A DNA stretch of 64,000 nt. It comes from Deuterostichococcus epilithicus. Lineage: Eukaryota; Chlorophyta; Trebouxiophyceae; Prasiolales; Stichococcaceae. The stretch's first letter is position 1, and every line of letters begins with the position of its first letter. A program made the translations under genes and the position numbers. The notes below the pieces were generated by a model. It did no database searches, had not been told where the DNA came from, and saw nothing but the letters and a program-made list of their open reading frames with translations. The stretch is taken from positions 186,012-250,011 of the forward strand of contig JAVTLE010000004.1 of NCBI GenBank assembly GCA_033439295.1, in the 5' to 3' direction. Positions 804 through 47,500 of the stretch are shown here, piece by piece.

Positions 804-3800
804 ATGGCGGTGGACGCAGACGCTCTTCCGGACTACGCTGCTGTCCAGGATAGTGCGGCGGATCAGCTTGAGCAGTCAGCGGTGGATGACACAGCGCTCG
901 ATGTGCACGAAGTCATGCCACCCATCGAGGTGTACAAGCAGCTATTGCTGGACTTCAAGGCAGTCAGCAGTGAGGTGCTGGCTGGTCCTGGCGTCAAGCC
1001 GCTGGTGCCTGGCTGGATGAAGCCGCGCAAGGACGGCGCCATCGTGCAGCCAGCTGTGCGCAAGGTGGGTGAGACGTTCCATGACAGGCGCCGAGGCTGT
1101 CAAGACTCAGCCTTGTTGACACGACACCGATGGTTATACGATACGCAGCGAGCCGTTTCGCTGCCAGGAAGGCCTGCCACGAGGAGTCACGTTTTTCTTG
1201 CACGACGCACCGTACACGCGGTCCGTTCGACTGCTGCGGCTGCATGGTTGCTCGCAGACGCATTTCTAAGGCGCATGTGGTATCTAGGACTTCCACGATC
1301 TCGCTGTGCGTAAGCGCTCAGCTCTAGCTGTCGCCCACGTCTGCACCTCGAGAAACCTAGCTTGAGCAGATGCGTACAACACGAGCAGCGTTGGAGGATG
1401 GCAGCTCGCGAGCAGGATTGCGTGCTGCACAGGACGGTCATACTCTGTTCCGTGTAGTACTGGGCCCAAGTTGATGACTGCAAAGCGTATAGCCATGCGG
1501 TGACTGCAACATCACCGCTGGCTTCTCGGATCAGTATCGGTTGTCAAGCATGAGACGCCTGCTGGGCAGCCTCGCTGCCTGCTAGACCGCTGCGACGAGC
1601 CCATAATAGCTAACCTGTCATGCTTGAGCGACCTGCACGCCTTATGGCATGTAGGCACGTTCAGGCTGTTTGCGCGACAATCCGCCCTGACCAGACGTTT
1701 GTTGGATGCTCGGTGGTGTCGGAACCTTCTTCGATGTGTCTGGACTGCCTCCGCATTGCACCTGGTGACCGTGGCCTGCGTCAATCCCATCTGCAAACAT
1801 GCTAGCACTGGCCCAGCAGATTGTCCGGCATGCGGCTGCGTGGACGATGCTGCACTAAATTGCCTGTTCGCGCCGCCGCAGATCCTGCTCAGCATCTCGG
1901 GCTGCTGCCTGCCGGGCGAGCTGCTGGCGCTGATGGGGCCCAGCGGCTCCGGCAAGACATCGCTGCTGTCCATCATTGGTGGCCGCGTGCCCAAGTGAGT
2001 GCCCGCTTCCTTCGAAATGCGCTGGCTCATCCTCTTGAACCTGTACACGCCAGACAGCATGTGAGCGTAAGGTGGCACTGCCCCTCGGAACTGGGCCCGA
2101 CGTGAAAGCTAGTCGGTCATGCGCACCTCGATGCGACCGTTCCTATGGTGTGCCGTGTGCCGTGTGCCGTCTGCCACACGGCCACCGCGCATGCCGGCCG
2201 TGACCTGCAGCCATGGTTGCGCCTGCTGCACGCACAGCAACGTCACGGCACGAGTTGACGGAGCTCATCTTTCCAAGAGTGACGCCTCACGCCCTGTCCT
2301 GCCTACGCAGGATGATGACAGTAGCGGGCAGCGTGACCTACAACGGCAAGCCGTTGAACAAGCGTGCCAAGCGCCAAGTCGGCTTCGTCCTGCAGGTGGG
2401 GAAGTGGTTGGGTGCGGTACAATTGCAGCTGCATTCCCGAAGGGTTCCACCGACCAGGCGCTGCCGCCCAGCGAACTCCAACCCACCCCGAACCCAGAAC
2501 CTGGACCCTAGCTGCCGTCCAGCATGTCTCGCCTGCATGCCCATCTGATGCCCAGTAGTGCCGTGGCTGGCTGCCCTGCGCAGAGCCACAGGCTGCCGAT
2601 TTCAACATACACCCGACCTGTTCCGTGTCCACCTCAGGACGACCTGCTGTACGAGAGCCTGACGGTGTGGGAGACGCTGTGGTTCGCCGCCCAACTGCGG
2701 CTGCCGCGCACCATGACCAAGGCCGCCAAGCGGGACCGCGTGACGACCGTCATTACGGCATTGGGCCTCACCCGCTGCCGCGACACCATCATCGGTTCGT
2801 GCTGTGTCTGTGCTGCGGCTCTGCGTGCAACGCAGCATGTCAAGATGTCAACTTGGGTTCAGCGCCGTGCCTGACGTGCGCCCCCCGGCTGCCGCCTCAT
2901 GCGCGTGGTGGTGAGACATGCACACAGAGCAGATGCAACACTGAAGTGGTGACGCCGGCAGCTGCGTGAGTGTCCTCGGGGCAGAATCAAACATGCAGGA
3001 AGCTGCCAACATGGTGTCATAGACGGACCAGCAATGGCAGGGCGGTGTCGCTGGCGCAGGCGGCTACTTCAGGCGGGGGGTGTCTGGCGGCGAGCGCAAG
3101 CGCGTGTCCGTCGGCCACGAGCTGCTCATCAACCCCTCCCTGCTGCTGCTGGACGAGCCCACCAGGCATGGGTCTGACTCCTGAGTACATCCTCTGTACA
3201 CACACAACAGCTTGCACTCTTGCAGCACGTGTGCTAAATGTGCTGTGTGAGGCTCAGGCCAATTAATCTGAGCCTGAGAGTCAGTCAACCACCGCAACCT
3301 GCAGCGGCCTGGACTCGACGACGGCGCTGCAGCTCGTCGAGTCCCTGCGCAGCCTGGCCTCAGGCGGCCGCGCCATCATCACTACCATCCACCAGCCGTC
3401 GGCGCGCCTGTACGGCCTCCTCGACAAGCTGCTGCTGCTGGCGGAGGGGCGGTCGCTGTACTATGGCAAGGTGTTCTATTGGTCTGGGCTTATAACGCTG
3501 ATCACTCTCCGTGTCACTCCTATGGTCTCTGTAGAACCTGGTCTTGTCATTGCGGCCTGCTTGACGAGCTGCTGCTGCTTGCGGAAGCGCGGCGGATTCG
3601 CCACGGCAAGGTGGTTTGTGTTGCAAGACAAGCTGCTTCCGATGTCTTCCCGCCGATGCCGTGCTGATGCCGGCCTGTTGGACGACCCTGCCTGTCACGT
3701 TTCTCATTTGGCACCCTGCTTGGTGTCGATCAGTTTATGTGTCTCAGCCTCCAAGCAGAGCTGCACACTTCAAGCGCCTGGCCTGTTGCTGGTGCCCGAT

Positions 3801-6800
3801 TGCTGGCCAGCCCGCGCACCGAGTGCTACCGAGTTTGAGCCGGGTGTCCCAATTCGCCTCACACTGTCAGCAGGAGAACTTCCATGACCAGGCTCTCGCC
3901 AGATCTCCACGGGCGGACATGGCGGCAAATTGCTTCCACCAGCTGAACTACACGCTGCCGGATGCCTGAGTAACGGAGCCTGACAAGTCCTCATTCCCCA
4001 TTCGCTCCTTGCAGGCGAGCATGGCGGCGGACTGGTTTCACCGGCTGGGCTACACGTTGCCGTATGGCACCAACATCGCAGACTTCATCCTGGATCTCGC
4101 GTCTGGCACTGTGGCCGCGCCCAAACGGTGAGCTCTGATCTGCCCCACCTGTGAGGAAACAGAAATGTGTTTGTTTAAAGAGAACGTAAACAAATAAACA
4201 TTCGCAGAGATCAACTTGGGCCTGGCCTCCGGCACTGGGTCGTGCCCAAGCGGTGCACAGGTGTGACATCGCCTTTTGCAGTTCGTCATGGAGGCAGTCC
4301 TTCGGCGCAAGGTGTCCATGACTCACAGCCGTGGCTCATCAGGCGGTCTCTTTGTGCTGTCAGCTTGCGCTCACTTCCGCCAACTTTCGCTCTGACGCCC
4401 GCCTCCCTAGAGCAGCCGTTGCACCTCCTCTCTGCAAAGCACCCGAGGCACAGAGTCCAGCAGTGGGGTCTGCGAACCATTCCCCACATTTGGGGCCATG
4501 TCACCAGCCCTCCATTCACACCCCCTGCAGGAATGGCGCAAACGGTCTGGCTCACCTGATCGACTGCAGCGAGACATTCCTCGCCGGCGGCGCCCGCAGC
4601 CAGGGGTACCAGGGTGACGAGGATCTCGCAGGTGCAACTGCTGGCATCAAAATGGCATGTATGAGCAAAGCAGCGACTGCGCGCTGCATCTGTCGCCAAG
4701 CAATTGAACAAAACATCAGTGTGAGTGCAAGGGCTCCGCACGACTCACACTGAAAGACACGCTATGCCGCCGCAGACTCCGGCATCAGCGTGGTGCAGGA
4801 GCCGCTGGCGTCGCGACTGTCCCTTGAAGGCGGCGGCCTGCCGCCTGCCATGCTGCCGCCGCAGGTCGCGCTGCCGGGCTCGCCTTCCGGCTCCCTGCGG
4901 AAGGTGATGCTCATGCTGCTCGGCCTTCTCCCCCGCTTGCAGGACATCCCTTGCAGCGCCATTGCAGGTGCGACAGGTCTGAGCTGGTGTGCCGCATGGC
5001 AGAGCTGCCGTGCGACTGCGACATCAGCGCCTCAGATGGCAAGCTGCTCAAGAGCCTGGATTGGCTGTGCTTGTGCAGATGTACGGCGTGAGGTCGCTGG
5101 ACGTCGAGGCAGGTGTGGACAGCATCGGTGTGCTGCGGCCGATGCCCGAGGCCGCCGCCCGGCACACATCCTCAGATAGTGACGAGGAGGCGCTGGTGAG
5201 TCTCGCAAAACCAATGCGACCACGACGCAGGCATTGAACCCAGAAGCTTGTATGCGCTTTGGTGCCTGCGAGGCACGGCAGCATTCTGAGCTCTTTCGAG
5301 CTGCTTCAATTGCGGCCCTGTAATGCGGAACTGTGGCACGATGGTGCAGCGCAAGCTGACTTGCTGGGTCCTGCGTCTGGTTGTCAGGCCCAAGCGCATG
5401 TGCGCTGCTTTCGCCAACGCAGCGCAGTCGGCAGCTCCTCGGGCTGGCAGGCCACTGATCGTGCTGCGCGCCCGAGTCCACACCCTAGATGGCTGACATG
5501 CCATCAGCTGTGCGCAAACGTGCCGCAGGACGCTGAGCTGATGGCGACCAAAATGCGGCACACCTGCCCAGAGTGCGGCGGCTCTGCCGCTCGGGGGCCC
5601 GCCGCCAGCGCCCGCACGATCCGGCGGACGCTCACGCGCATGGAGACGTTGACGCCGAGCAAGAGGCAGCCCAGCCGGTGCGAGTGTACATCTCATGCAA
5701 GGTTCCTGACCTCGTCCTGTGCTGGGACATACCGGTCAAGGGCTTTTCAAGTCAGTGCGATGCACACCTGTGCATGTGGACACAGTAGTGCTTGAGATAG
5801 CACCAGGTGCCAGGCAATGTCCCCACCTGTCTTCCACCTGTCGTCTGATATGTGCCGCCTTCCCTGTATGTAGGTGGGGCGCAACCTACAGCGAGCAGCT
5901 GCGCATCCTGTTCGTGCGCAGCATCAAGACGCGCCGCTTCGAGTCGCTGTCAGCACAGGACTTGGCGCAGCTTCTCATCGTGGGGCTGCTGTCAGGCGCG
6001 GCCCTCGCAGCCTGGACCGAGATGCATTTGATCCCGAAGTTGCGCAGGAATTGCCCAACAGGCTGATGGCTGTAGTCCATGGCATGCACCTGGCGCCTGT
6101 GCTGCAGCTCCTACGCAAGCGCTGCCGCAGGCTCCGACATCGATCTGGTCTCATGCTGGACAGGCCTATCGTGGTTGCAAAGTGCACAAGCTGCAGCTGG
6201 TGTGCCAGTCTTGAACCCCTGGGACATGCGCCCGTTGCTCTGGTGTCATCGTTTCCTCTTGCAAAAACGCTGCATTTCGAATGCCGTGCAGGCCTGTTTT
6301 GGTTCAACGTGGGCAAAGGCGAGCTGGTGCACGATGCCAGCAACATCCTGGGCCTGGTCTTTTTTGAGCTCCTGTTTCTCGCCTTTCGCATCATGTTTGC
6401 GGTGCGTCACTTGCCGCCACCCTGGTCGGACTGCAAGGTCATGATGTGTCGCAATTGCAGACCATGGCCATGCCTCAGGAGCGGCATTTCCTTGTGACAG
6501 ACTAGGCCCTGGTTTTTAAAATCATTCTATCTGATGCTAGTGTGCGACAACTGACGAAGTGGATGACCTGCCTGGTGCCCTGCAGGCTCTGTTCACCTTC
6601 CCCAACGAGTACAAGATGATGCTCAAGGTGTGCAGCTTGTTAACGGTCGCCTTGGGACTTTCCGGTCCTGTTGCAACGCCTGCTGCCGCCCATCACACCA
6701 CGCGCTGTCGTCACATGCTGGCTGCCGATGCCCGATGAGCTTGAAAACCAGCCGCGCGCCACAGCGAGCTGATGCAGCATCTGATTTTGCTGTCCCAGGA

Positions 6801-8807: not shown

Positions 8808-9319
8808 AAGATGCGGTGTTAGAACATTGGACGACCAGCAGTTCACTTGCCGCAGGGTATGTCATGGCTAGCATTCTTTCGTGAGTTTGTCACGGTCTCA
8901 CGTTGTGATCGCAAGTTGACATTCTGTAATCGTTTTCAAGAAATCGATAGAAACGTGGAATTATTCAGTGAAAGCAGCTGAATTCAAGCAGGGACGAGCT
9001 GCCAGGGCAGGCTATTCTTTAGCAAATGCGAATTTACTGACGAGTGATGCACAGCACAGCTCAGCAGAATGTGTCCCAGCACAGGCTTTCTATGAAATCA
9101 GATCCCGGCTGCTGTATATGGATTGTGCCCAGACAGACGCACTTCCTGGGCTGTATCGATGCTCATACCTAGAACGACTGAGGATCTCTCTCTTCGCACA
9201 CGGTCGTTGCCGGCCTCGTTTGAGCGTACGTCTGCACTGCTCAACGTTTGACTGTCTGCCAGCCGATCAGACAGCCAAAAAAAACCGCCAAAAGGCAATC
9301 CCGCGGCGCCATAGCCAGC
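8808..9319. other. Intergenic region and ABCG 3' untranslated region
   Basis: No coding frame with family resemblance is seen. It holds the TGTAA signal for the upstream gene and presumably the promoter of the next (+) gene. Confidence 0.5.
8925..8929 (+). terminator. TGTAA poly(A)-type signal of the ABCG gene
   Basis: TGTAA occurs about 120 nt after the stop codon at 8805-8807. TGTAA is the usual polyadenylation signal in chlorophyte algae, so its position fits. Cleavage itself cannot be seen. Confidence 0.55.
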
Positions 9320-16408: not shown

Positions 16409-19400
16409 ATGGTCGTCGCCACGCCGGCAATGCGGCGGTCCACGCGGCTGCGGCGCACCCAGGCGGACCCAGCACAAGCCGCCGAGGCTGAGCCGTCGTC
16501 TCAGGCCACGGGTGGGTCCAAGCTTGCGCCTTTTGCTTTGGAAGTGACTCTGGACTTGCAATGACCGCCCTGGACCCGCGGCAAAGCCTTACGGTATACG
16601 TCGCAGGCTGCGGTGCGCCGCGGCGCCGGCGCTCAGGCCATTTCTCTACTGTACGGATCATGCAACCTCCTTGCCTACCGCGCAGAGGACACCAGCCAGG
16701 CGCCCGGTGGCCTGACCACGCGCCGCGGCGCTACGCGGCCCCAATCTGGCAACAGCGGCCTGTCACAGGAGCCTGCGGCATCTGCAACTCCGGCGACGAC
16801 GCGGCGATCGCGCCGCCGTCCGCAGCAGCAGGACGCGCAGAGCCCGCTGCGCGATGCAGGTGGGGTTTTTGGGCTGAAACCTCAAGTGCAGCCCAGGTGT
16901 GGTAGTCACTGCGCCATTGATCTACGTTCCGATTTGCCAGGCTGAGATGAAGGGTGATGCACAGCTGGTGCAGGCAGCAGGCTGTTGGTGCCACGTTCAT
17001 CTGCTGTTGGTGCTCTGCGCAAAGGCCTCAACGGTGGTTCTTCAGCGTCACTTATGCAACCAATGCAGGTGCTGACGCAGCTGGCAATGCAGCCCAGACG
17101 TCAGAACCTGCAACGCCTGCATCAGCGGACGCCAACACGTCAGACATCATGGCAGCGGCGGCGCAGCCAGCACAACCAGCAGAGCCAGCATCTGTGGAGC
17201 CAGCCGAGCACGATGCGGACCAGCCGGTGACGCCCGCAGCCGCCGCTGCGCACACCAGCGGCGGTGATGAGCAGTCTGACGGTGCCGCCAGAGGCTCAGA
17301 GGATGCTGGTGGTGGCGAAGGCGCCGGCGCCGCCGGTGCGCCTCAGACGGTCGACGAAATTTCGTCGGACGACGAAGACGATGAGGCTGCCGCTGAGGCG
17401 CAGCTGGGAGGTGACCTGCTGCAGCAGCTTGCGGCGGGCATGGCGGCAGCGCTGGGGCCGCCGCGGCAGCCCGCGGCGACGGCAGCGCATCTGCGGGCTT
17501 CTGATGAGGTCGGTGACGAGACTGACATGTCAGATGGCAGCAGCAGCGAGGAAGAGGTGGGCGGATCTGACATGGAGGAAGACGCGGCGGTATCAGGCGG
17601 CAGGCGCGGCGCCGGGGCTGCCGGCCCGCTGCCGGCCCACGCTCGGCTCACCGCTGCAGGTCCGACACCCTTGCTACTTCCCTGCACAGTGCAGGAATCA
17701 CTTGCTCGACATGACCTTCAGCATATCGGGCTGGCCAGCTGCCGTCTGGACGAGACTGGGAGTGCAGCGCCCAGGCAGGCATCGGCAGCAGCGGGCCACA
17801 CCGTCTGACGGTGCACACAGACCGTGCTCAAGGACTCCCGCTGCTGGGCGCGCTGCAGAGAAGACGGCGCTGCGGTGGGTGCCGCAGTCGCAGCTGCCGC
17901 CGCCGGCGGAGGGTGATGAGGCGACGGACGCCTTGGCGGCGGCGGCGCGTCGCAGCCTGCATGCCCAGGCCAAACAGGTGAGAGCAGCCCCTGCACGGGC
18001 CGGTTGCCAGGGCTGCCAGAGTGGTCCGTTACGTTTTGAACTGCGACGGCGCTGATGGCGGTATGTGCTGCAGGACCCGGGGGGCGCTGCGATGTGCAGA
18101 GTCTTGTGGACTGACAGGAACTCGGTTCAAAGATGCTGTGCGCCGATGTCTGTCACTACGCCTTCCGCTCCTCGCATGCCGCGCAGCGCCTTTTGACACC
18201 TTCCCGGCCGTGGCTCGCAGCTGCTGACGTGGCGGACCCGGCGCTGCGCCGTGCGCTTCTTCCATGCCTTGGGTTGTTGCTGCCTCTCCTGCCCATGTCC
18301 ATGTTCCTTTCACATTCGTTCGCGTCTCGGGCGCGCAGCTCCTGGCGCCGCCGCGAGACGAGCGGCGGGCTGCGCGCGAGGCGCGCAAGAACGCCCCCGA
18401 CACCGCAGGCGCCAACTGGTTCGACCTGCCTGCCACGCAGATCACGCCCCAGGTGACACACTCGCGCCGGCTTGCCTTGCTCCCAACCATGTTCCTCGAG
18501 ACTGGGCGTGGCACCTGTCACGAGTGAGCTGTGTGTGCTGGAGCACCGTTGGTCTTTCTTGGGAAGCAGGCGCCCAGCTGGATGTGTTGCTGATGGCATG
18601 TGGGGCGTGATTCGCCTGATCCTGTGCGCTGCTCTTCTCTCTTGGCTGAGCAACAGTGCCGACGACATTGCTGACACGTCCGTTTGCTGGCTCCTTTGTT
18701 GTTCTTAGATCCACAGGTGAGGGGGTCCAGCAGCTGCTCGCAGCGCTTTTGGCCCGAATCGCTCTTACCGGAACTCCTTCTGCATGCGTCCTTCTGTCTC
18801 TCCTCATTCCCTTCCCAAACATTGCTGATACAGGTGCAGCAGGTTCTTTGACTGCTGGCAATGCGGGGGGGCATTCGACCAGACGCGCCTCTCACCGCAA
18901 TAAGCATCAGCCTGCTGTGTGCTCATCGCTGTGGAACCGTCGTGCCGCAGGTGAAGCAGGACCTGCGGCTGCTGGCGCTGAGGGGCGCCTTCGACCCCAA
19001 GCGGTTTTACCGCAACCCGGACGCCACCAAGTTCCCAAAGTACTTCCAGATGGGCACGGTGGTGGAGGGCCCCACCGACTTCTACAGCGGTGTGCCTTTG
19101 GCGGTGGTGTTGTGAATGTTGCGGCCATCTGTAGGGAACATGCTGTTGTGGACGCATGAGGGATGTGTGCAATGGGCAACCAGAGGCAGGCATCTATCTG
19201 CCTCGATCGCTGCGCCACTGGTGTACCCGCACTTCGGAACATTAAGTGACGAGTTGTGCACTGCAGGCCGGATGACGCGGAAGGAGCGGAAGCAAACGCT
19301 TACGGAGGAATTGCTGGCAGATGCGCAGCTGCAGGCGGCGCACAAGCGGCGCTTCGGCAAGCTGCAGGCAGAGCGCAGCCGCTTTGCAGACAAGAAGAAG

Positions 19401-25900: not shown

Positions 25901-28900
25901 CGTCTGCAACGCAAGCTGGAATGCAAGCTGGAGTGCAGCTACCATGCAGTCGCATCCTAGCAGCCAGGAAAGGAAGCAGCATCTTCTGGCTTAGCAGCAT
26001 TGTCACAAGGCTTGAAATGGCCGGACGATGGCCGGGCGCTGCCCTTTTCAGGCGCTGTGCGCGACATTTGGGCAGGGCACGGAGCTGCAAGTGCCCTGCC
26101 CTCGATCCCGTCACGGGGTGTGAACAACGGCCTGACCTGTCGTCGGAGCCGTCCCACAGGTGGTGCTGGGCGAGCCGGATGGCTGGCGGGAAGCCCCCGG
26201 GGGCGCAGCACGCGGCAGCGGCGGCAGCCCGGCAGGCTGGGCTGCGGCCTTGCACCGGACACCAGGACGCAGGTGCAGTGTCTCCCCCTTGTCACTGGCC
26301 TCTTCAACAAGTCAGATGTGCGCGATCCGCACGTGCAGCGTGCCATGCTTGTGGATGTCAAGATTGGGCTTGGCGTTCATCCCCCAACGAGCCGCCGAGT
26401 GCCGCCTCTCGGCTTCGAGCTTGGCTGCGAGAGCTGCTGTATGCGCCAGCCCTCTCATCCAGTGCGTCGCATCCTGTTCAAGCGCACCCTTCCACATGTC
26501 AACCTCAGCTGCTTGTTCGTCTCCTCAAAGGCAATCTGAGAGACAGGGACTGCTTTCCTTCGGCCAGCGCAGGCCGTTGCCGAAGAGTAGGCGTGGGCCT
26601 GCAGGCAGCGCGCCCGCCGCCTTCCGGACGCCCCTCCTCACACTGGGAACTTTCACTCACCGTTTGGAGACCGACAACATATCACCCCCTGCATGCCGCA
26701 GGTCATCGCAGAAGGGGCCCACTAAGCTGGGCGAGCTGCAGGCGGCATTCAGGGGCGTGGCCGCCTCCGCGTTTGGCGTGTGGGCATCCTGGGCCGGCCG
26801 GTGGGTACCTTTCCCCAAAACAGCCGTCACCTTCAAAATCTGAATCCTCGCTGACACACAGAAGTATGTGCACAGGCCAGTGCTGTCGCGGCAGCTGTTT
26901 TGGCCCCGGGCCGTGGCGGCTGCCCCCTGTGTGCATGCGTCAGACCCGGTGTGCATTTCTGCTGTACACAGCAGCTGCTGCATGCCAAGTTGTCGCCCTT
27001 GTGGATTGTCGTACAGCCCTGTCGCTGACGGTGTGTGAGCCATCGCACGACCTGCCACACCACCACGTGCCGTCGTTTGTGTGCAACAATGCCATGGCTA
27101 GCTGTATGCGCACCTCGCGGCTGATTGCTGTCGCTGTCAACTGCTGGTTGTGGGGCTGCTCTGGCATGTGATCGACGCGTTGCAATGCGCGCTGGGCTCT
27201 TATGCTGGTGCGCGTCGCAGATCCCGTCACGTACATGCCACAGCACATCCAATCAGCATGCGCAGCAAGCTTCCGCATCCGATCGTGTATCAGTTTGTGG
27301 TGTGTCTCGGTGGTCAAGCTGCAATGCGACCGGGCCGCAGGAAGACGCAGCGCTCAGGTCCTCCCAATTGCGAGCACGTAAACGGGCAGTAGGTAAACAA
27401 TTCCGTTCACATCTGGCCACAGGTCGCTGGCAGCGGAGCTGGTGACAGGGCTGGAGGCAGACGCTGCGCTGTCGTCGGCTGCGGCGCTGCGTGGCTGGCA
27501 GGTGCACTCTTGGCTCATCTGGCTGAAGGATGCGGGCGGTCACCCATGAAAGCACAGCATCGCTGACCCTGGCAACCTGGAATGCGCTCGTGTTTGGACT
27601 CCAACCCCAGAGGCGTCCTGCCTTGCATCCGAGTTGTGTCATGCAGCCGACTCATCGTAGCTGAGACGAATGTGGCAGGCGAGGCGTGCGAGGCCGGCGG
27701 CGACGTGTGATTTGGCGTCCAGCATCCAGCCTGCGTGTCAGATTCCTGGTCTCACATCGATTTCGCTCGTGATGACCTTCATTACTTGAAGCAGTGGTGG
27801 CGTGGGAGCGCGGCGGTGCAGGTGGCGACATGCACTGCCGGCTGCTGGGCGAGCATTCAAGAAGCGGGTCGCTTCTCTTATCTGTATCTAAATTCTGATT
27901 CCTCACTGAGGTGCCTTTGTACGTTTCAAACAGGAGACGGTGGTCGTCGGCGAGGGCAATGAGGCAGGAGGCGACATGCGCTTCTGGCTTCCGGGCGGCC
28001 CCTCGCCGGCGGCGCTGGGCGCGCTGCTGTCGGCGTGCCGCGAGCTCGACCGCGCAGGTCGGCACCTGCCTGCGCACACTAGAACACCGGACTATAAACA
28101 GCTCAAGTGGCTCCAAGTGCTGGCCATCGCCAAGTTGGCGGTCGCTCGTGCGGCGCCTGGCGAGCTGCTGTCGGCGTGCCGCGAGCTATTGCGCGTGGCT
28201 GAGTCATTTTGAAGCCTCGACGAGCAAAGCGTCTTCTGTTATCACGCCACAGTCCCACTTTATGCCTGCGAGGCTTGTGGTCGCTTCATGCTTCTGCGAG
28301 CACTGGCTCCGAGCTCACCAGCTGCGCCCGTGCAGCTCGTGCATGGAGCTTTGGCCGCCTGTGCGGCACTCCTCGCGCCTGCTCCATACGTTTGGCTTCT
28401 TTGAGTCTCACTTGAGGCGCAGGGTGCCATAAACCGCACAGCCTTGCCAGCCGATACCGCCCTCGGCGGTTGCTGGCCTGTCTGCGGCCTGGCTGCATGC
28501 TGGGCGAATGTACACACGAGTCTCAGGCCGCTGTCATCTCATGCAACTGGATGGTGGAGCTGGAAGTTCGCATTGACATCCTTACAAGCCTCCGTCGGTG
28601 TGCAGGCGACCATGTGCGCGCGTACCAGTCTTGGAGCTTCTCAAAAGGGAGCTGCGCATCGCCAAACCTTTCGATTTTCGGGCTGGGTTGTCTGAGATAG
28701 AGATGCTGAGGCTGTCGCCCTGACTCGGCACATCGCACCCACTGCGCACGCACCCAGCAGCCCAGCGCTGGAGCTGGTGAACAGGGGGCCGGGCGGCGCT
28801 GGACCCCAGCCTGATATCCTTCGATACACAGCCCTCTCCACCCGACCTCTCTAGGCACATCGGGCCACCACCTGCGCGTGTGGTCACGTGATCAGCACGC

Positions 28901-31189
28901 CGGCGCTGGAGCTGCCGGAATGGGACCCTCAGCAGCACCCATCCAAGCTGAAGTTCTGGAATGCACTGCACTACAGCTCACGCGGGGCCCCTACCTGTGC
29001 CGCGCAGGCGGCCACATGCCCAGCACGCCCGCACTGGAGCTGCTGGAGTGGGAGCTCGGCGGTGCAGTCCTGGCAACGCNCGCGCCGCTGCTGCCGCCCG
29101 GCTCGGAATCCGACGCAGCCGTCGGCGGCGGCGGCGCCGGCGACGGCGGCAGGGCGCCGCTGCGCCGGCGGCTGTCGGAGCGGGGCGTGCTGCAGCTGCT
29201 GTTCGACGCGGGGCTGCTGCGCGCAGCGCTGGCTGGCGCGCGGCCGCCGGCGGCCGAGGGGCTGCAGAGGTGGCCCTGCTGTCCAGACTTTGTGCCCCAA
29301 CTGGCGCTTTTTTGCATGCGACTCCTCCATGTATGTTGTATTGCACGAGGATGGTGCTGCTTGAGCCAGCAGCCGCCTCTGTGCACCTGGTAGCAAGGCC
29401 AGCCCCCGGCACACGAGCGGTCATGTGTCAGCGCGCATCGTGTACCTTTGACCTTCAAAGCCGGCTTCAGAGCCGGCTCGATGGCGGCGTGGCCCCGAGA
29501 GGTCACAGTGTGGCGGCGGGCACGGCCTGGAAGCAGCCCTGCAGTCTCACTCCTTGGATTTCGCACTTGGAGTTTGCTCTTGCACCGGCCCCCGAACCTG
29601 GTGGCGCTTGCTGTGCTTCAGGGCGGGCTCGACGGCAGCACCCCCTGAGGTTGCGGCGCGGCGGCGGGCGTGGCAGGACCTGGAATCTGCATTGCAGTCG
29701 CGACTGGACCCCATCGACTGGGCCACCTACGAGCCCTACCTGGCAGCGAATGTGGCGGCCTTTTGCGGTCGGGCAGGCGTGCTGCTTGGCAGTCTGCTGC
29801 AGCTGGCGCGGCCGGCGACTGCAGAGGTGAGGACGGCTTTGAGTCCCGTGGAAACCGTTTGGCACCCCTCCTTGCTTCACAATTGGGTATGACCGGCGTG
29901 CTGCAGGGCAGTCTGCTGGCACGGCCGCGCGCGGCCAGGGGCGAATCATGAACCACACAGTTTCCGGTCCTGGGCACTGGCAAACCAGACTGCGAGATGC
30001 CGAAGGATAATGTTTGCTGCATGTTGCTGCTGCCAAGTTGCCACGCCGGCAGCCACTGCCGGCAATGGATGTCTCGGCTGCACCTGCTGCGGCGACGCTG
30101 CCTGCCCAGCGCTGCCCATTACCTCGGGCGACACAGTGCAGCGGGCTGTCGACCATGCCATGCTCCCTGCGGCCGCAGGCGGCGCAAAAGGCGGCGGCGC
30201 CGGGCGCGGATGCCAACATCGTGGCGCTGGCGCCCCCCGCCGAGCGGTTTGCCTACCTGCCCATCTCCACGCCCTCGGCAGCGGCGGCGGCGCTGCGGCG
30301 CGGCGCAGCCCCGGCGCTGCTGCCGGACGCAGGTGCACCCTGCTTCCTGTTTCCCCTGTATCTACAGCCATCGATGCAGTGCTCTGGCGCTGGCGGCGAG
30401 GCGGACGTTTCATGCACTGCTTGCCGGCGGCCTGGGCGCTGTGGTGCGCCACATGTGCCTGGCATGCCACCACCTGGTGGTGGCACTGTCATCTGCGGCA
30501 AGGCACACGGAGCTGCTCCCCGTATGACGGCAGCAAGCAGCATTCCCTCGTCTTTGTGCTGCAGGGCGCGGCGTCGCCGACGAGGACGACGAGAGCTACA
30601 GCTTTGCGGACCTGGGCGGCCGCTCCGCCGGCTTCGCCGCGGCGCCGGCGGCGGCCGCCGCGGCGCCGGAGGGCTCCACTTTCGAGGTGCGCAGGCAAAA
30701 TTACTGCAGCTAAAACAGTGTTTCAAAAGTCTGCACGCCCCCCTCCCCCCTTCTCTCAGCAGGGCCCTGGCAGCCCCGGGGGATCCAAGCCACGCCTCAG
30801 CGGCAGCTCCACCCGGCGCATTGCGCCGCGTGCGATGCAAAGCGCCGAGCTCAGAGAGGCTCAGGCACGGCACTGGATCACCGAGCAGGCGCATGGGCGA
30901 CGCATTGCTGTGCGAGGGCGCGACCCCGCGACCGCCCTCGGTGCAGGCGCTGCAGGCATCTGTCGACACCCTGCTACCCCCTGCGACGTCGTTCACATGT
31001 TGCGGCCCGCACCTGCAGGGCCTGCAGTCGTCAGCGAGCGCGCGCCTTGGCGCCTTTGGCTCGCTGCTGGGCGACAAGGCGGCGGAGGCGGCGGGCTCGC
31101 TGGCTTCGGCGGCATCGCTGGGAGACTACCTGCAGCCCGCCGCCGCGTCGACGCTGCTGTCCAGCTTCCGGAGCCGCTGGCAGACCTGA
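19948..31189 (+). CDS. Conserved oligomeric Golgi complex subunit 1 (COG1), 22 exons
   Basis: Peripheral Golgi tethering subunit that bridges the two lobes of the COG complex in retrograde intra-Golgi transport. Exons: 19948-20046, 20228-20301, 20411-20492, 20657-20726, 20929-21130, 21397-21514, 22295-22435, 22698-22859, 23140-23374, 23790-23935, 24647-24863, 25064-25277, 25663-25849, 26160-26272, 26702-26800, 27423-27501, 27934-28057, 29008-29269, 29622-29826, 30179-30332, 30565-30686, 31019-31189; 3276 nt, 1091 aa, near the plant length. Diagnostic segments are TVAEIRE, ALRQLVGDSYRDLISSAD, RVKYLVDTPETLWGCLD, SERGVLQLLFDAGLL, RLDPIDWATYEPYLAANV and ERFAYLPIS. The middle is expanded by Ala/Gly-rich stretches. 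Introns 1 and 5 use GC donors (20047, 21131). One N at 29080 lies in exon 18. Exon 22 could start further upstream; the frame is open there. Confidence 0.95.
23993..24023 (+). repeat. Decayed copy of COG1 exon 10 end
   Basis: GCCGCCTTTGCCGAGGTGAGC resembles the exon end and donor GCCGCCTTTGCGGGGGTGAGC at 23921, offset 82 bp, inside intron 10. Confidence 0.7.
28149..28199 (+). repeat. Decayed copy of COG1 exon 17 end
   Basis: GAGCTGCTGTCGGCGTGCCG and the bases after it repeat the exon 17 end (GCGCTGCTGTCGGCGTGCCG at 28021) 141 bp further on, inside intron 17. The copy is nearly intact over about 35 bp. Confidence 0.85.
28756..28926 (+). repeat. Two decayed copies of COG1 exon 18 start
   Basis: STPALEL-type sequence occurs at 28756 (SSPALELV), 28894 (ISTPALELPEW) and in the real exon at 29022 (PSTPALELLEW). 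Spacings are 138 and 128 bp, so this is a regular three-copy ladder ending in the functional exon. Confidence 0.8.
29468..29556 (+). repeat. Decayed copy of COG1 exon 19 start with acceptor
   Basis: TTCAGAGCCGGCTCGATGGC, then GTGGCGGCGGGCACGGCCTGGA, matches the acceptor and start of exon 19 (TTCAGGGCGGGCTCGACGGC at 29617) at an offset of 151 bp over about 80 bp. Confidence 0.85.
29891..29945 (+). repeat. Decayed copy of COG1 exon 19 end
   Basis: GGCGTGCTGCAGGGCAGTCT followed by GCTGGCACGGCCG repeats the exon end at 29776 (GGCGTGCTGCTTGGCAGTCT), offset 119 bp, in intron 19. Confidence 0.8.
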
Positions 31190-35542: not shown

Positions 35543-38500
35543 TCAAACAGAGGACTGCGGCCGCCGCCCGTGTTGCCCCTGGCCTCCAGCGGTGCCGTCG
35601 TCGTGGCCGATGGGCCGCAGCCCTAGCAACCCCAGGGCGTGCGCCCAGTCATTGCGCCGCAGGCACCGCCGCACCAGGTATCCGTCAGAGCGGGCGATGT
35701 TTGCTGCCAGCATCACCTGTGGGCGCCAAGGGCTGCAGCTCATACCGATCTGCAGGCAAAGCATTGCCCAGTGCCCATCATCCAGTGTGTGATGGCCTCT
35801 CATGCGCCCACAGCGGCAGGCGGCATGTGCATGGTGCAATGCACCAGGTGCATGGAGTTATAAAGAAGCCGGCAGGACCACGGGTGCGCACAGCAGGGAA
35901 ACCTGATCACACCGCCAAGCTCGGATGGATGGCGTGAAACCCACCTGGCAGGTGGCATGTCTCAGCAGTCTCACCTTGTCGAGGGACACGCTCGTGGCGA
36001 AGGTGAAGCTCAGCCACCTCACTGGGACGCCACAAAACAGAGCCGCCGCTCAGAGCGGCCAGCAGTGCAGCATGGCGCTGCATCGCACCATCTGTCATGG
36101 CACGCCCAGCCGGCTGCAACAGCTCGCACATACAACAGGAACAGTTTCTTCTCCAGCGCGGCTGCCAGCTCACTGCCACTCCCTTTGCTGGCAACTGCTT
36201 GGTTTTCGAGCCAAACATACATGCACTGCGCACCAACGTCGTCGACGGTGCCATCGGCGATCTCCGCCGCCTGGACGCGGCGGTGCAGCTCTGCGATTGT
36301 GCGCAAGTATTGCTCCCGCAACTCCAGCCTGCGGCGCGTGATCGCGAGGCATCTGACCACAAGCAAGCCAAAAAGCGTGTGTCACTACACTCCCATGCGC
36401 AGTATCATTCCCAGCCTGCTGCCTCGCCCTGGCCTTTTTGAGCCGTGTCGTGGCGGCCCTAAGCTGTTTGCTGGCTTAGAAACAATGTGAATTAGGTACA
36501 ATTGGAGTTTCACAGGAAGATAACTGGCGGCATCGACCCGAGGCACATGTGCAGGAAGCCATTTCAGCCTGCAATTGCTGCTTTCGCAGCTGCTGGAGAC
36601 GCTGAAAGGACAGTTCATGCGCTTCCAGCGCGTTTCAACAGCACGCACCTGGCCGCCGTGAGCTCCTCCAGGGCCGCGTCCACCTCTTGCAGCTGCTCCG
36701 CCACGTGGCCGCGCTCGTCGCCCGCCAGCAGCGCCTGCAGAGTGGTGCCCACCGCCATGGCGGCGGTCATCACCCGCTCGAACACCGGCTGCAACGGCTG
36801 CAGATGTTCAGAAATGTATACTCAAGCACAATCTGATGTGTAGCTTGCTAGCAGCACCTGCCGTGCGGCGCCAACACCCTCAGCAGTGCCCGTGAGGTGC
36901 AAAAGCTGTAAGGTTGCGCATGAGTGCACAAGGAAGTTCCTTTTGAATTTGGCCAGCAGCGCCTGCAGGCGGCGCCCAGCGCCTCGGCGGCAGCCATGAC
37001 TCGCTCGAAAATCGGCATCAGCGGCTGTAGAGGCGGGGAACGGCAATGTCTCTTACACTCTCAGACATGCCGCCCGCACAGCACCCAACGCCTTGGCGGC
37101 GCTCATCACCGCTTGCAAGCAGGCTGCAGAGGGAAAATGCTTCCAGGGTGGAGCTGCTGCTGTTGTGCCTTCGTCTGCAGTAGAACCTCGGCAGCGTCAT
37201 AATGCTGGGTGTCAGCTGGCCGCCACCACGACTCGGAAATCCTGCTTGGCGGCTCACACTCAAGCTCCAAGTCGAAGGTCAACCACCGATGGAGGGCGAC
37301 TCTGGTCGTCGAAGCAGACCACCGACCTCGGCAATGTGCTGGTATGTCGTGGCGGTGAAGCGCCCGCTGACGAGCGGCGGCTGCGCCAGCGTCGACTCCA
37401 CGGCAGAGAGTCTCACCAGCAGCACCTCCAGACTGCCCTTGAGGCGCACCACCACCTGTCAAATGAGGGACCGGAACATGTAAGCTGACCCATTGTGGAA
37501 GCCCTGCTGCCCTGCTGGATAGTGCCTGGTCTCCTCTTCAACTGCTGCCGCCGCCAGCCGCACCACGCAGCCCCCCATCGAGGCTTCAACCATGACAATA
37601 GAAACAGCCAGCACTAAGCGGCATACGAAAAATTGTAGTCGCTCGTGGACATCGGGCTGACTGCTGCTGGAGCGCCGTCTTCGATAGACACGATGGTGGT
37701 GATGGCATTCCTTCCCAAGCAGCGCAGCTGATTGCTTCTGCTCTACAACCTGATCGTCACCTGCGGCATGGCCAGCCAGCCGCGGTGCCACAGCACGCGC
37801 TCACGCGCCAGGATGTCCTGCACGCCCACCAGTCGCGCGCTGACGCACTGCTCCAGTGCCCGCCGCAGCTGTGGCGGGTCCGGCAGCGGCTCGCCGTCGG
37901 CTGCCTCCGCCTGCTCCTCCCTGCCTTCCAGCGCTGTGCGCAGCAGCATCCTGTAAGTGATTGATGTAAGCGTTGACGCTGAATCTGCCGCTGTTTCACC
38001 GGCTGGTGGATCCCACGCCAGTGTGGGCTGCATTGCGCAGCTGTGGTGCACGGAGGACGGAGGATTCCTTCCAAGCCCCAGGCAGACGAGTTGACCATGC
38101 GCAGTTCCTCTGGCATTGCTGCAGCTGTAAAAAGCAAAAATGAGTTTAATGGAGTTATGTAGGAGCAGCACCGCCCGTTCTCACTTTCACAGCGGAACTC
38201 ACTGTGGCAGCATTTCTCCAGCACAACGCTGCACTGCAGGACTCCGCAGCCAATGCGCGTTGATTGAAGCTTGACACGCCTGCCAGATGCCTTGTGAAGC
38301 TACTGCCAGAATTGACAAGGTTGGCCTGACCCTCCAGGCTTTCGGCCCTCCAACGACCACGTACAAAACAAACAAAACACAACGTCACGTCGGATTCGCG
38401 CCAGGTCCCCCATGGCACTACTAACGACGCCCACCGGCGCTTGACTTCCAGGTTCTGATGGAGCTGGGTATGTTAGCCGGGGTATGAACGTTGCATGCAA

Positions 38501-41500: not shown

Positions 41501-44500
41501 TTGCCTGCCGACCCTGCTGCTCCCCGCTGCCGGCTCTGCCGCCACCGCCGCAGCCGTCGGCTGCGTCCGCATCAGAGCGTGCCGCTTCCGCGCTCTGCCG
41601 CCGTGCAGGCTCACGCGCCGCCGCCGCCGCCTGCCCTGCCGCGTGCGAGTCTGCATCCCTAGCCGCCTGCACGACCACCTCTGCCAGCGGCACGCCGGCT
41701 GTGTCAGAGGCGCGCGCCAGCGCCAGGCTCGCCGCCTCCAGAGCCGCCTCTGGTGATGGCGCCGCCACCTCGTCCTTCCTGCACACAGCTGATGGAACTC
41801 GCATCATGGTGGTGGCATCCGGCATCAAGCTGCCGATGGGTCTGCAGACTCGCCAACCCGCAGGTGTATCTCGCTGGTATGAGACACGGCTTGCGGATCT
41901 CAAATGCCATGCACGCAGCATGTCGCCTCAGCTGCCGTGACCATCGAGCGTCGGCGCTCTGGCCGATGCTGCCACTGGAGGCCATGGCGGGATTTGCCAC
42001 AGCGGCACACTGCTTGACATTTGAGTGCAGTCTCCCAGCTGTGAGGCTTCCTGACGCATAAGGAGCTGAGTTGTGCGCCAGGATGCGTGGGACGTCTACC
42101 AACCGGCAGGTGCCAATTGGACGGAAAGCGATATCGCTTGCAGCGCAGCATGGGGCGGCAACGCAAGCGGGCCAGGCACATATTGTCGGCGCGCTCGCAG
42201 GTCGTGCGATTGGAAAGCTGAAGGCTATACCTGTCATGATGATGGAGATGCAGGCGCCAAGAGCGGCGGCGGCGGCACCGCCGCAGTGCGCACAGCGTCA
42301 GCTGGGCTGCCGCCGCCGCTTCCACCGCTTCCTCCGCATCCGCCAGCGCCACCATGGTCTCGTACAGCAACACTGCCACGTACACTACCGCCCGCACCTG
42401 CGCCAAGGAATGACGCAGGGTCGCAAACTCTAGGGTCCGAGAGTCGCACAAACTTTCTAGCAACCAAAAAAGCGTCTGCTCTGTGCATGCGGTAGCGCCT
42501 GCAGCGCCCAAAGTGACACACGCAGAGAGTCGCTCTGCACCCAGATGCGCGGCGTTCTCTGCTGAGCAGCATGACGTCCTGCATCTGTGTGCTCTGTTAC
42601 TGACCTCGTTCGCAGCGTCGCCTTGTGCGACGCCGCACCCCTGGCTTCACTCATCTCACACACGGTGGCAAGGCTTGACAGCAGGCCTGCAGGCGGTGCT
42701 CTTGTCTTGGCTCGCTACACAGAAGGATATGAAAGCTGGACCGCAGGGGCTGCAAGTGCTGCGGCTCCTCCATCCAGGAGCGCGCTCCACAGGTGCCTTC
42801 AGCTCCAAGGGGTACGAGTCGTAGTCAGATCCGAGATTGATTTCCCTCCCAACATTGTTGCGAAAGTACAGGAACCGGCCTGCAGATGCGGCGGACGCTG
42901 CGGCTGCTCCATCCACGCATGCGCGGCGAAGGCCCAGTATCCCGACGAGCCGAGCGCCGCCCGCAGCGCCGCCGCCAGCTGCGCCTCCAGAGCCGGCCAT
43001 GACGGCTGGAACAGCCGGCCTGCCGGCGCCGCATCCAGCTGCAGGCATTGGCCATCGATCATGCCCATTGGCAGCTTTTGCGGATTAGCGGAACGTGTCT
43101 CTGTGTGAACGCGTTCTGCTGTAACGCATCCAGGCCAAAACAGCCTGGATGCGGATGTGCCATTGAAGGTTGCTGACGTCATGTGTGCGAGCACACCAGC
43201 AGCGATGGGGGCAGCAGCCGGACCAGTGAGGAAGGAGTTGCGTTGTGCTAGTGCCGCATCACAGAGCGCCGAGAGAGCAGGCCCAGCACCGAATGAATGT
43301 GATCAGTGGCGGTCCATGGGGACTCCATTATGGTTCACGCAAAGTTTTGGCGCCACAATCGCAGCCCACCTGGCCGCCGACCCTCTGCATATGCAGGCTC
43401 AGCGCCAGCGCCCGGCAGCACGAGGCGACATGTGCAAACGCCACCTTCAGCAGCGGTATCAGGTCCACGCCTGCGCACACAGGCAAGGTGCTGTGTGACT
43501 TTCCAAACTTTATACTCCCGGCAATTGCTAATGAGGCTGGCGAGCGCTGGGACCATTCCTCGTGTTTCTCAATGCAAAGCGTCCAGAGTGCGTGAGGTGC
43601 TCCGCATGTGTGCCACGGAGTGCCCAAATTGCCATAGGCAGCAGCCTTTAAGCTGCGTACCAGCAGGTGCTAAGGCGAAGCTGAATCGTGATGCCGATTC
43701 TGCAGGGTATCGTGTCTGCTCTACATCCGCAAATGCAACCGCCTGAGCGCCACCATCCACTCAGGGTCACCAGCAGCCGTGGCATGGCTGCGCCGTGCAC
43801 AGTCAAGCTTCTGCGGAGTCAGCCATGTGTGAGGGGCACAAGCTTCTGGGCGGGCAATCTCCTGGATGGGCAACACGCACCCAGGATTGCCTGCACTCGG
43901 GAGCCGTCCAGCAGCCTCTCGTCGCTCCACAGCACCGACTCCAGGGACCCGGCGCGGATGATGATGGCCTCCGATGCGTCCAGGGCAGCGCCCCAGTAGC
44001 GCAGCAGCATGCGGCGGGCCTCCAGCTGCGGCGGCTCGTACGCCGCCTGCAGTGGATCTGTGTCCTGCCCAATCGGATGGTTGTTGCCAGCAAAGCGGCT
44101 TCTGCACAGTCAGTGCTGTGCGCATCAAGCACACCAGTGCAGTCCATTGCTCGGGTGTTCAGGTGTCCGCTTCTGGCGGCAGGAGAACAGCGAGCCTGCA
44201 AGGATGCGTGTTTGGTGACCGCACTCGCCGGACACAAAGATTGAGGAGGCACACTCGTCACCTGTACGCCGCAATGTTGACTTCGGCCGACAGAGGGCAG
44301 GAAGGCGCCGGTGAGGGGGCCCACGAAAAAAGCATCAGCATCTGTGCTGCTGCGCTGGGAGCTCTGTTTTACTGGCGGAAAAGGCCAGAGCCCACCTCCT
44401 CGAGCAGGCGCCGCGCCAGCTGCACCCTGGACAGCAGCTCCGAGATCGGCCATTCCCTGTGACCGGCCCCCCCGATCTGCAGAGCGCTTCACATTGCGTT

Positions 44501-47500
44501 GGCGGGGGTCCAGGCGGGTAGGGATCACGGCGGTCCAGGCGGGTAGGGTTTTGATGCAGCAATGCAAGCAGCTCCTCGACTTGCCGGGCCTGTGGAGGTG
44601 TTATGTCAGCTGACGCACGCTGCAGCTGCTGGCAAAAGACCCGCCGTCAGTCAACGCTGCACCTGCGGCGCTGTGGGGCGGACTGACCCTCAGGAATGCT
44701 GTGTGATGGCAGCGAGATGATGGATGATCCGTCACGCATAGCCTGCCTTGCCGAAGAACACACCTTGCAGGGGCCCTGAGAGCGCGAGGGGTCAGTGCTC
44801 TCCCGCATCAGCCGCTGGTACTCTTCCAGGCTGGCGCGCTCGTGCGCCGCCACCACCTCCGCATGGCGCGGCCGCCTCCGGCTGCCGTCGAGCTCGCTGC
44901 CGCTGCCGCTGCTGGTGCCGCGGCTGCAAGCAGCGGCAGCATCGATGCTGCTTCGGCTGGCCCCCTCCGGCCTGGATGCTGGTGAGGCGACTAAGCCGCC
45001 AACGGCGGCAGCCGGGATCTTCTTGGCGGCGGCAGGCGGAGCCATTGCTGTGTGGCACCTGCCGTCAGGCTGCGCGCCTGCCGCTGCCGGATCTGCGCCT
45101 GCGGCTGCCGTTCCGGCTGCATTGGTTGCGACTGCAGGGCTGGCTCCTTTGCTGCCATGAAATGGGGCACTACTGCCATCGACGTCATCATCATCGATCG
45201 GTGCCGCTTCTTCTTCTGGAGCCAGCAGCTGGCTCGCATACCTACAGAACGACGGTGCACTGTAAGCGGTTATCCTTCGAGCTCATGTTGGCGCATGCAC
45301 AATGAGGGCAGGTGAGCGCAGGCCGATGCTTGCCTTTCGCATAGCAGAGGTTGAGACGGGCATGCAACCCAAGCTCAGCAGTCGACCGCCCGGTTGCAGA
45401 TCCAAATTTTGTGCTGCTTGCGGCGACACAATAATGCTGAAGCAGTTGCGGACGTGTAGAAAAGAAAGACTGGCATGTCCTTACTCCGAGACGGCAACGC
45501 CAATCTGCTGCAGGGTGTCCGCTGTCACCTCCTGCATCTGCTGCCGCGCCAGCGATGACATGACGCCCAGCGCTCCGATGCAGCAGGCAGCCGCCGCCAC
45601 CAGGGCCACGTATACTAGCGGCACCACCACCTGTTCATCACACGGTGGCGGGCCACTTCAAAGGCTTCCTCAGCCTCCTCTTGCGTTGCTGTCTGCTGAG
45701 CACCTCGTGGGATCGGCACAATGGTGCTGCTCACAATGGAACGCCCCAACAGGGCGTCGCTCCTGACATCTCCTGCTGCGGTGCTGGCACGACCCTTCTA
45801 AGCAGCCTCAGCTGCCGGCTGTGCAGTCACACAGAGCCATGTGGGCGCCGCAGCAGCGTCGATGTGGGACGAGGGAGGAGCCTCGACCATTGAGTCCTCG
45901 CAAACAACTCGAACATACAGTCTCTGCGCTTGAAGCTCTTTTCCAATGATGGCTCATACAAGCGTATGGAAATAAGACCTTTGGCATCATCTTACCTGTG
46001 ACCACAGCTGGCCGGCACCCCATACGAACTGGCCGCTCAAGACCTGCAAGTAGGTTGCGAGCGCAGCATCAGTCACGCTGGGAAGCAGAGTTTGACGCCG
46101 CCATGAGGGCTCAGGTCAGCCCAGCCCTCAGCCCAGCTGTTCGTCGAGTCACCGTGCAGCGCAATACGCTGCACAGCAGCCGCCGCACCCTGCGTGAGCA
46201 GCAAACATACGAAATGACACTGCAGCAACTGCACTCGCTTATGTCACCCTATAATCCCATCTGCAGATGCACGCCACCAGGAATGACATGTAGCGAATCT
46301 CTGGCAGTCGTCCTTGCTTGTTTGCGGCAGCGTGAAGCGCGGCCGGCGTCGCGCCGCAGCACCTCCAGCTGCAATCTCACAAGCTGTCAGGGCCTGCTGG
46401 CTGACCTTGCAATGCAGTTTGTCGAGGAAGGAACCCCGCCATGAGTGCATGAAGCTGGAGACTAGGTGGACGAGCAAAGCCTCTGGTCCCATCTGCGCCC
46501 GCACCGACGCCAGCAAGCCGTGCCAGACCTTGGTGCTGAGTCGCCTTCCCATGAAATTGAGGCCCAATCTGACGGGCAGCGCCGTTCGCTGACATCCCTC
46601 CAGCTGTCGCTGCGTTTTGGTTCCCTCCAGGTGCGCTGAAACCACATGTGCCTTACCGCGCAGACGTGTCTCGCCAGATTGACGAGGAGCATTCTCGGCA
46701 CCGAATTTTGGAGCCCTTTCGAAGCTTACGGATTCCTTCTACGAGTGTAGCTTGATCCTCGAGGAGGGGCGCCTCACCGTGAAGGTGAGGCCCAGGTTGA
46801 CCAGCAGCGACTTGGGTCCCATCTGGGCCCGCACCGCCGCCAGCGGCGCGAAGCCGGCGCACACGAAGATGCACGCAAATGTGGTGTAGGCCGTGCCAGG
46901 CGCATGCGCCAGCGTGAGCTGCGGCACCAGACAGGAGAGAGAAGGGTTTGCGACCGGCACCTGTGTCGGATGCGATCTTGTTTATATTAGGTGCATGCAG
47001 TCGATGAGATGGGATGGGGTGGGTGCTGTTGGGTACTATATATCTGCTGCGCCTGCCACACATTGTGCATGGCAACAAACTGCGCCAGGGCTGTCACGGC
47101 ACCACCACCTTGCAACCAGCGGCATGATCCTGCAGGCTGCATGATGCACAAGCTAGTGTGCTAGGCGGCAGGCATCAATGCAAACGCTCACCAGCAGGCC
47201 GCCATACAGGATGCCGAGGAGCAGGCTGCCCAGGGTGTATGCCGCGGCCCACAACTGGGTTCCCACATGCTGGTCCTGGCTCAGCACCTGCAGTAGCGGC
47301 ACATGGCAGGTGGCAGCGATTCAGCGGCTGATCGGCAGAGCTTGCAGCGCTACGCATTCCTAGAACCCTGCATGCGTGTGTAGCTGGCTAGCCATATGCT
47401 GGTCCTACTTGGTCGCCACCTGCAGCGGTACATGGCGTGTGCAGGGGCAGCAGCTGGGTGGCAAGGCACGAAAGTTCGCATTCTATTTCAGGCGCACACA

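Follow-up and report, generated by a model that had tools for sequence, protein, structure and literature searches.

Why do introns of a green alga carry decayed copies of the exon ends beside them, and why do these copies lie at so similar a distance from their source? The question is raised by a stretch of 64,000 nucleotides from Deuterostichococcus epilithicus (assembly GCA_033439295.1, contig JAVTLE010000004.1, positions 186,012 to 250,011 of the forward strand; hereafter "the window", numbered from its first letter). In several of its genes, including an ABCG transporter gene and COG1, the intron next to an exon contains a diverged copy of the end or the start of that exon, subsequently designated an echo. 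Our analysis indicates that the echoes are probably what short tandem duplications, mostly of 100-150 bp, left in the intron when the duplicated unit extended across an exon-intron border.

Exon-edge echoes exceed background in the sampled genome

The window alone is a small sample, and the excess described here rests on 304,427 bp, i.e. the window and 35 further loci of the same genome (46.8 Mb, 21 contigs). These comprise 19 stretches of 10 kb taken at round positions on 13 contigs and 16 of 20 gene-centred loci from an ABC-transporter search. Left out of the counts were L001, which lies within the window, L018 (contig C21, probably organelle) and L028, L036 and L037, which overlap other loci; L023 and L032, which share ~1.5 kb, were both retained, and their overlap holds no counted repeat. 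Tandem arrays with a unit of up to 36 bp and low-complexity sequence were masked before local self-alignment in offset bands (match 2, mismatch -3, gap -7), for which a score of at least 32 served as main threshold. A +1/-1 scoring was dropped as too permissive (695 matches vs 347-515 in control bands).

This procedure detected 98 direct repeats at offsets 30-529, compared to 6, 8, 1, 2 and 4 alignments (mean 4.2) in equally wide bands beginning at 1000, 2000, 3000, 4000 and 5000 bp. The comparison with shuffled sequence, which had been proposed together with the original prediction, was run by permuting three-base words inside 60-bp blocks: the real sequence yielded 66 alignments at offsets 60-179 and the five shuffled replicates yielded 0, 0, 0, 1 and 0. 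Orientation was equally one-sided, with 101 direct vs 6 inverted repeats (score at least 32, distances 20-619), the latter corresponding to background. In the window, an ungapped scan (30-bp windows, at least 24 identical positions, arrays masked) detected 17 segments at offsets 20-2999, six of them at 100-149. The excess of exon-edge echoes is confirmed as genuine, and it extends past the window.

Echoes copy the exon end that faces them

Exons and introns were assigned by a self-trained gene finder, which was seeded with Pfam-identified ABC exons and trained on the same sequence that it annotates, so that all splice sites are predicted ones. Its third version was used, as the first had collapsed to tiny exons and the second had fused genes. 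It predicts 47 genes with 546 introns, the medians being 258 bp for introns and 110 bp for internal exons; exons make up 23% and introns 63% of the sampled sequence, and the splice consensus resembles CAG/GTGCG at the donor and TGCAG/G at the acceptor. The finder has flaws: its first FUSC model runs antisense into COG1 (28.9-31.7 kb) and mislabels some COG1 echoes, the pair at 29776 being counted as intronic in one listing and the pair at 28874 as exon-exon in another, and models of 15-18 kb join neighbours, e.g. the Fcf2 homologue and COG1. GC replaces GT as predicted donor in 65 of 367 introns with flanking exons of at least 50 bp, a share that greatly exceeds the customary one percent or so and that depends on these same gene models.

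According to these models, the 98 repeats fall into 70 exon-intron pairs, 12 exon-exon pairs and 16 repeats that are neither. Downstream echoes copy the 3' end of the exon and abut the donor in 22 of 29 cases; upstream echoes copy its 5' start, with the acceptor abutted or crossed in 33 of 41 cases and strictly abutted in 25. The wrong exon end alone was abutted by one downstream echo and by no upstream echo. Altogether, the predicted splice site is abutted or crossed in 55 of the 70 pairs (47 strictly), where random placement expects 21.3. Exactly this exon-edge geometry follows if a tandem unit spans a splice site and the mRNA is kept unchanged, and it is the signature of tandem duplications which are tolerated since the extra copy is spliced out. 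We infer the splice site in use at each echo, as well as the old age of most events discussed below.

The proposed course of events would be as follows. In case of a unit over a donor, the first donor would stay in use and the second exon end would turn into intron; in case of a unit over an acceptor, the second acceptor would stay in use and the first exon start would turn into intron. The mRNA would be unaltered and the duplication thereby tolerated, while the intron would gain the length of one unit. The exon copy would then be kept by selection and the intron copy would decay. Units lying wholly in an intron would decay twice as fast and become invisible, hence echoes would seem bound to exons.

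Among the 12 exon-exon pairs, seven have offsets divisible by 3; some may be true protein repeats and others echoes called as exons. WD40, HEAT and similar repeats have units of 33-50 amino acids. An origin from such protein repeats was set aside for the bulk of the material, 70 of 98 pairs being exon-intron.

The offsets form a broad size class

When the nearest echo per exon end was considered (n=61), 33 echoes were located at 100-149 bp. Per million placement opportunities, the rate amounts to ~9 at 100-150 bp, 3-5 below 100 bp, 3 at 150-175 bp and at most 1 above, corresponding to an approximately ninefold drop beyond 175 bp. Evenly spread offsets, which had been named as an outcome that would speak against the duplication reading, are rejected (uniform spectrum, p 5e-17), as are spectra following 1/d (p 3e-5, weakening to p 0.003 once 125 bp are subtracted from the intron lengths) and 1/d-squared (p 8e-7). 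The pitch of ~130 bp initially proposed is not a fixed value; the sizes spread broadly over ~75-165 bp, with most offsets at 100-150 bp. In bins of 10 bases there may be two maxima, at about 115 and 145.

At 100-179 bp and scores of at least 28, repeats that are neither exon-intron nor exon-exon number 12 (0.9 expected) and exon-exon pairs number 11 (1.2 expected). As these other repeats show the same size excess, the data weakly suggest that size does not result from splicing alone, several of the twelve not being independent. The size limit is probably set by the mutational process rather than by selection.

Extent of the presumed duplicated unit and decay of the echo

Next to the exon part of each unit, its intronic part was addressed. 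For each of 33 pairs abutting a splice site, the intron sequence that separates exon and echo was aligned to that on the far side of the echo. These intronic halves were similar in 7 of 33 pairs at p<=0.005, where 0.17 are expected (combined p ~1e-6). In simulated tandem duplications, 5-55% of the pairs reached significance at 24-32% decay per copy, a range that includes the observed 21%. The observed share is compatible with whole-unit duplication if decay was that strong, and the decay level itself was derived from alignment lengths; in the other 26 pairs, duplication of the whole unit is presumed. Serial arrays exist at near-multiples of one offset, i.e. 138+128=266 in COG1, 110/226 in L005 and 137/267 in L016.

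Mismatches between exon and echo are spread over the codon positions (171/883, 137/867 and 194/867, i.e. 19%, 16% and 22%, in 68 pairs), and offsets modulo 3 are distributed 16/15/21 (n=52). The donor dinucleotide is retained in 10 of 15 echoes and the acceptor AG in 8 of 18; donor retention is what neutral decay leads one to expect. The mismatch pattern is far from that of coding constraint on the echo, and there is little such constraint. Short tandem duplication with one copy held by selection, as originally suggested, is thus supported by the splice-site geometry, by the seven similar intronic halves and by the little coding constraint on the echo. The changes from exon to echo comprise 56% transitions and lack a C-to-T bias, and hypermutation of duplicates resembling repeat-induced point mutation was rejected on these grounds. 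Assembly artefacts were set aside by reasoning, most copies being 10-25% diverged.

Age of the presumed duplications

To fit the age, decay simulations of whole-unit duplication were compared with identities and lengths of 50 pairs at offsets 70-180. A single neutral divergence of ~0.24-0.28 (log-likelihood -121, -127) beats a constant rate (-162) in the joint fit, and this gain comes entirely from length (-50 for length alone vs -92 for constant rate). Alignments are visible over 65% of the unit in just 3 of 51 duplications of 100-165 bp vs 8 of 15 of 55-99 bp (p 1e-4). Two readings agree with this: the 100-165 bp class may be old and quiescent, accompanied by a younger class of smaller, minisatellite-like duplications, or its copies may have fallen short of the whole unit from the outset. 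We lean to an old class because of the splice-site geometry and the seven similar intronic halves; the near-absence of young whole-unit copies, as judged from alignment lengths, suggests an old wave. At such an age, purely intronic pairs would be more than 40% diverged and undetectable, and echoes would for this reason appear tied to exons. A young tandem duplication of 82 bp, 95% identical, was found in a predicted intron at L013:9569-9650.

A more far-reaching scenario, which we regard as doubtful, is that an ancestor went through a bounded genome-wide episode in which a physical length of ~100-165 bp (the scale of a lagging-strand fragment or a nucleosome) fixed the size of tandemly duplicated units, perhaps while flap processing or break repair was temporarily defective. 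This episode would have left tens of thousands of copies and a sizeable share of the present intron sequence, readable only where an exon froze one copy.

Weighing tandem duplication against alternatives

Several observations weigh against decayed whole-unit tandem duplications. The expected splice site is missed by 15 of the 70 pairs, and 26 of 33 intronic halves lack homology at p<=0.005. The strongest single case against whole-unit decay is a COG1 copy (28009-28046/28150-28187), which is 92% identical over 38 bp and whose intronic half lacks homology (p 0.915). Alignments reach 65 bp in just 4 of 50 pairs vs 32-78% in random-placement simulations. The exon parts are accordingly too short for the simplest form of the model, in which units end at random in the exon, a form that is not essential to tandem duplication per se: long pseudo-exons may have been selected against as being spliced in, the ends of units may avoid the interior of exons, or copies may have been short from birth. 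Few repeats at 60-179 bp lie wholly in introns, and these include several that represent arrays linked to exons, minisatellites or a conflict of labels. Divergence is somewhat higher at third codon positions than at the others (chi-squared 12.1, p 0.002), a mild excess that is expected if the exon side drifts. Identity alone slightly favours a constant rate (-82.6 vs -85.5 for the best single age), and a constant-rate whole-unit model predicts ~27 of 50 alignments of at least 90 bp, of which one was seen. The proposal that duplication is recurrent fares unevenly: identities taken alone fit a steady rate, and young whole-unit copies are nearly absent.

A different origin of the size class would be that duplications of unbiased size have to pass a size window imposed by splicing and selection, the unit carrying full intronic signals and being shorter than the intron. 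Indeed, units seldom have an intronic part below 45-50 bp (range 32-159) and exon parts are short, as if a unit must bring enough intron. However, given the exon and intron lengths measured here, such a filter predicts that 67% (uniform), 43% (1/d) or 20% (1/d-squared) of echoes exceed 180 bp, whereas 15% were observed, and a 1/d-squared spectrum puts 33% below 70 bp, where 7% were observed. Repeats other than exon-intron pairs also exceed expectation at 100-139 bp (9 vs 0.46 expected per bin, score at least 28; several not independent), and we consider a size filter somewhat unlikely. Break repair could alternatively copy 20-70 bp of an exon edge into the intron by templated insertion (polymerase-theta-like or by template switching), without the whole unit and at a roughly steady rate. 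This would explain the short visible copies (median 39.5 bp) and the short exon parts, and it agrees with the 26 flanks without homology and with the steady rate that fits the identities alone. Templated insertion would, however, often copy exon interiors and give both orientations, whereas most pairs border or overlap the splice site on the side of the echo and inverted copies are at background; the seven duplicated intronic halves and the serial arrays also argue against this improbable route.

Mobile elements were considered as well, in the form of introner-like introns or of insertions with long target-site duplications. Direct copies do flank ~85 bp of intron sequence, as such insertions would have it. 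Yet none of 52 echo regions matched another sampled locus (E<=1e-4, within 304 kb), in agreement with the initial view that the copies are not introner elements, and extension up to the opposite predicted exon, which this origin requires, was seen in just 3 of 52 echoes; we give such an origin hardly any credence. Selection on echoes as functional alternative exons or regulated decoy sites would be in line with the donor dinucleotide kept in 10 of 15 echoes. Donor retention is explained by neutral decay, however, and the spread of mismatches over codon positions, the offsets modulo 3 and the low retention of the acceptor AG make such a function very improbable. The suggestion that echoes serve as new exons is likewise unsupported, given the codon positions and the acceptor AG kept in 8 of 18.

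Echoes and other features of the window

All 15 offsets of the original prediction have an alignment in the window within ~1 bp, matched by offset alone as no positions had been given. Eleven of them score at least 32 (140, 102, 125, 117, 82, 141, 128, 119, 228, 139 and 330 bp); the remaining four (138, 151, 109 and 129 bp) score just 25-30, and single matches there are not above chance. Of the genes that had been named, the ABCG transporter (Pfam ABC_tran and ABC2_membrane) and COG1 (VPS51_Exo84_N) were verified, the first FUSC-like gene was weakly supported (FUSC_2, 26.7 bits vs a cut-off of 25.6), and the second FUSC-like gene was not, as the 182-aa piece searched had no Pfam match. Instead of four genes, five are concerned, as the 117-bp echo falls in a homologue of Fcf2 (Pfam Fcf2).

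On the forward strand, the 3' end of ABCG exon 3305-3470 (3413..3473) has an echo at 3553-3613 with a donor-like GTG (offset 140, score 52, toD -3). ABCG exon 4015-4127 has an upstream echo of its 5' end at 3912..3964 (offset 102, score 46, toA -1), and its 3' end (4072..4130) recurs at 4197-4255 (offset 125, score 42, toD -3). An upstream echo of the 5' end of exon 18951-19089 of the Fcf2 homologue is located at 18831..18900 (offset 117/115, score 37, toA -3). In COG1, the 3' end of exon 23790-23935 (23917..23941) is repeated at 23999-24023 with the donor-like GTGAG retained (offset 82, score 35, toD -6). Exon 27934-28057 is preceded by an echo at 27818..27851 (offset 146, 30 bp inside the exon, score 38), and its 3' part at 28009..28046 is echoed by the 28150-28187 copy considered above (offset 141, score 61). 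Two serial echoes lie upstream of exon 29008-29269 at 28753..28925, with offset 266 at 28753, 128 at 28874 and 138 at 28755 (score 29). Exon 29622-29826 has a weak echo upstream at 29464..29488 (offset 151, score just 30), and its 3' part (29776..29799) is echoed at 29895-29918 (offset 119, score 38).

The remaining echoes are on the reverse strand. The 5' end of FUSC-like exon 36649-36788 (36724..36804) has serial echoes at ~36952-37031 (offset 228, score 78) and 37084-37128 (offset 336, score 43), an array with weaker links at 105 and 109 bp. A downstream echo of FUSC-like exon 42880-43038 comprises 19 bp at 42758..42776 (offset 139, 17 bp inside the exon, score 33). Exon 46778-46918 of the second FUSC-like gene is echoed downstream at 46450..46514 (offset 330, score 60), with a weaker copy at 46542 (offset 228, score 30), and exon 47192-47287 shows a weak match of 47255..47277 to 47384-47406 (offset 129, score just 26).

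Other duplications were noted alongside. The FUSC-like paralogue exons 36644-36756 and 63041-63153 match at 76% and could serve to date echoes. Two direct copies of ~4.2 kb (49652-53848 and 55713-59961; piecewise identity 67-72%), each with a repeat-rich open frame, appear from their sequence to be a decayed gene-sized duplication. An 18-bp array of ~36 copies at 58751-59392 lies in an open frame and encodes a PGTPTA-type protein repeat. Outside the window, open frames at L010:559-4390 and 9242-9998 resemble a copia-type retroelement polyprotein, as judged by eye from the translation.

Effect on introns and relation to known systems

Echoes were found in 47 of 546 introns, and these have a median length of 432 bp, compared to 247 bp in introns lacking a visible echo, longer introns also offering more room for echoes. 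They are unevenly distributed among genes (chi-squared 74.3, 44 degrees of freedom), as illustrated by 7 of 18 introns in L016 and 0 of 26 in L039. Repeats at 60-180 bp number 9, 7 and 6 in L016, L007 and L008 (18, 17 and 10 introns), and none occur in L039, L004 and L012 (26, 17 and 15 introns). After rough correction for detection (~half at the estimated age) and for units missing a splice site, there may have been about half an event per intron, amounting very roughly to a quarter of intron sequence, provided that the class is old. Introns here seem to have been lengthened rather than created.

In this respect the echoes differ from tandem genomic duplication that creates introns, with which they share short in-gene tandem duplication as described for the potato RdRp case (PMC4974935) and in a review (PMC3443670). 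In the AGGT model of intron creation, intron length equals the offset and the echo borders the opposite exon. Here, a distance of 78-1247 bp separates 49 of 52 echoes from the opposite exon, the echoes being embedded in longer introns, and no new intron was seen. In contrast to the potato RdRp case, many copies of one size class occur across our sample. A likeness also exists to internal gene duplication of exon and intron segments, reported as frequent by Gao and Lynch 2009 according to the citations in PMC4974935 and PMC3443670. A size-restricted, genome-wide class of exon-edge echoes was not reported among the matches listed from the open-licence PMC literature.

Minisatellites are likewise intronic tandem direct repeats, here of ~58-62 bp in L021, L038 and L040; the 100-165 bp class differs in consisting of two or three diverged copies, and Tandem Repeats Finder did not find it in the window (longest period 41). 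Duplication mutations of the FEN1/Okazaki type carry short flanking microhomology and show a replication-strand bias; the junctions of the algal copies are heavily decayed. Failed maturation of Okazaki fragments upon rad27/FEN1 loss raises short duplications, some with internal sequence between the units, and duplications were also seen in the cells examined there under FEN1 inhibition, more so when XPF was inhibited as well (PMC12633238). These duplications under FEN1/XPF inhibition make lagging-strand processing a candidate source of the algal copies, which we offer as a lead only.

What makes introns grow in genomes with few transposons is still to be explained, and short tandem duplication of an unusually narrow size may be an overlooked route. 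Exon edges act as casts that keep duplications lost from pure intron, so that the size of the process and, with more data, its age become measurable. Should the whole genome show the same 100-150 bp class, a mutational process with an inherent length would be indicated.

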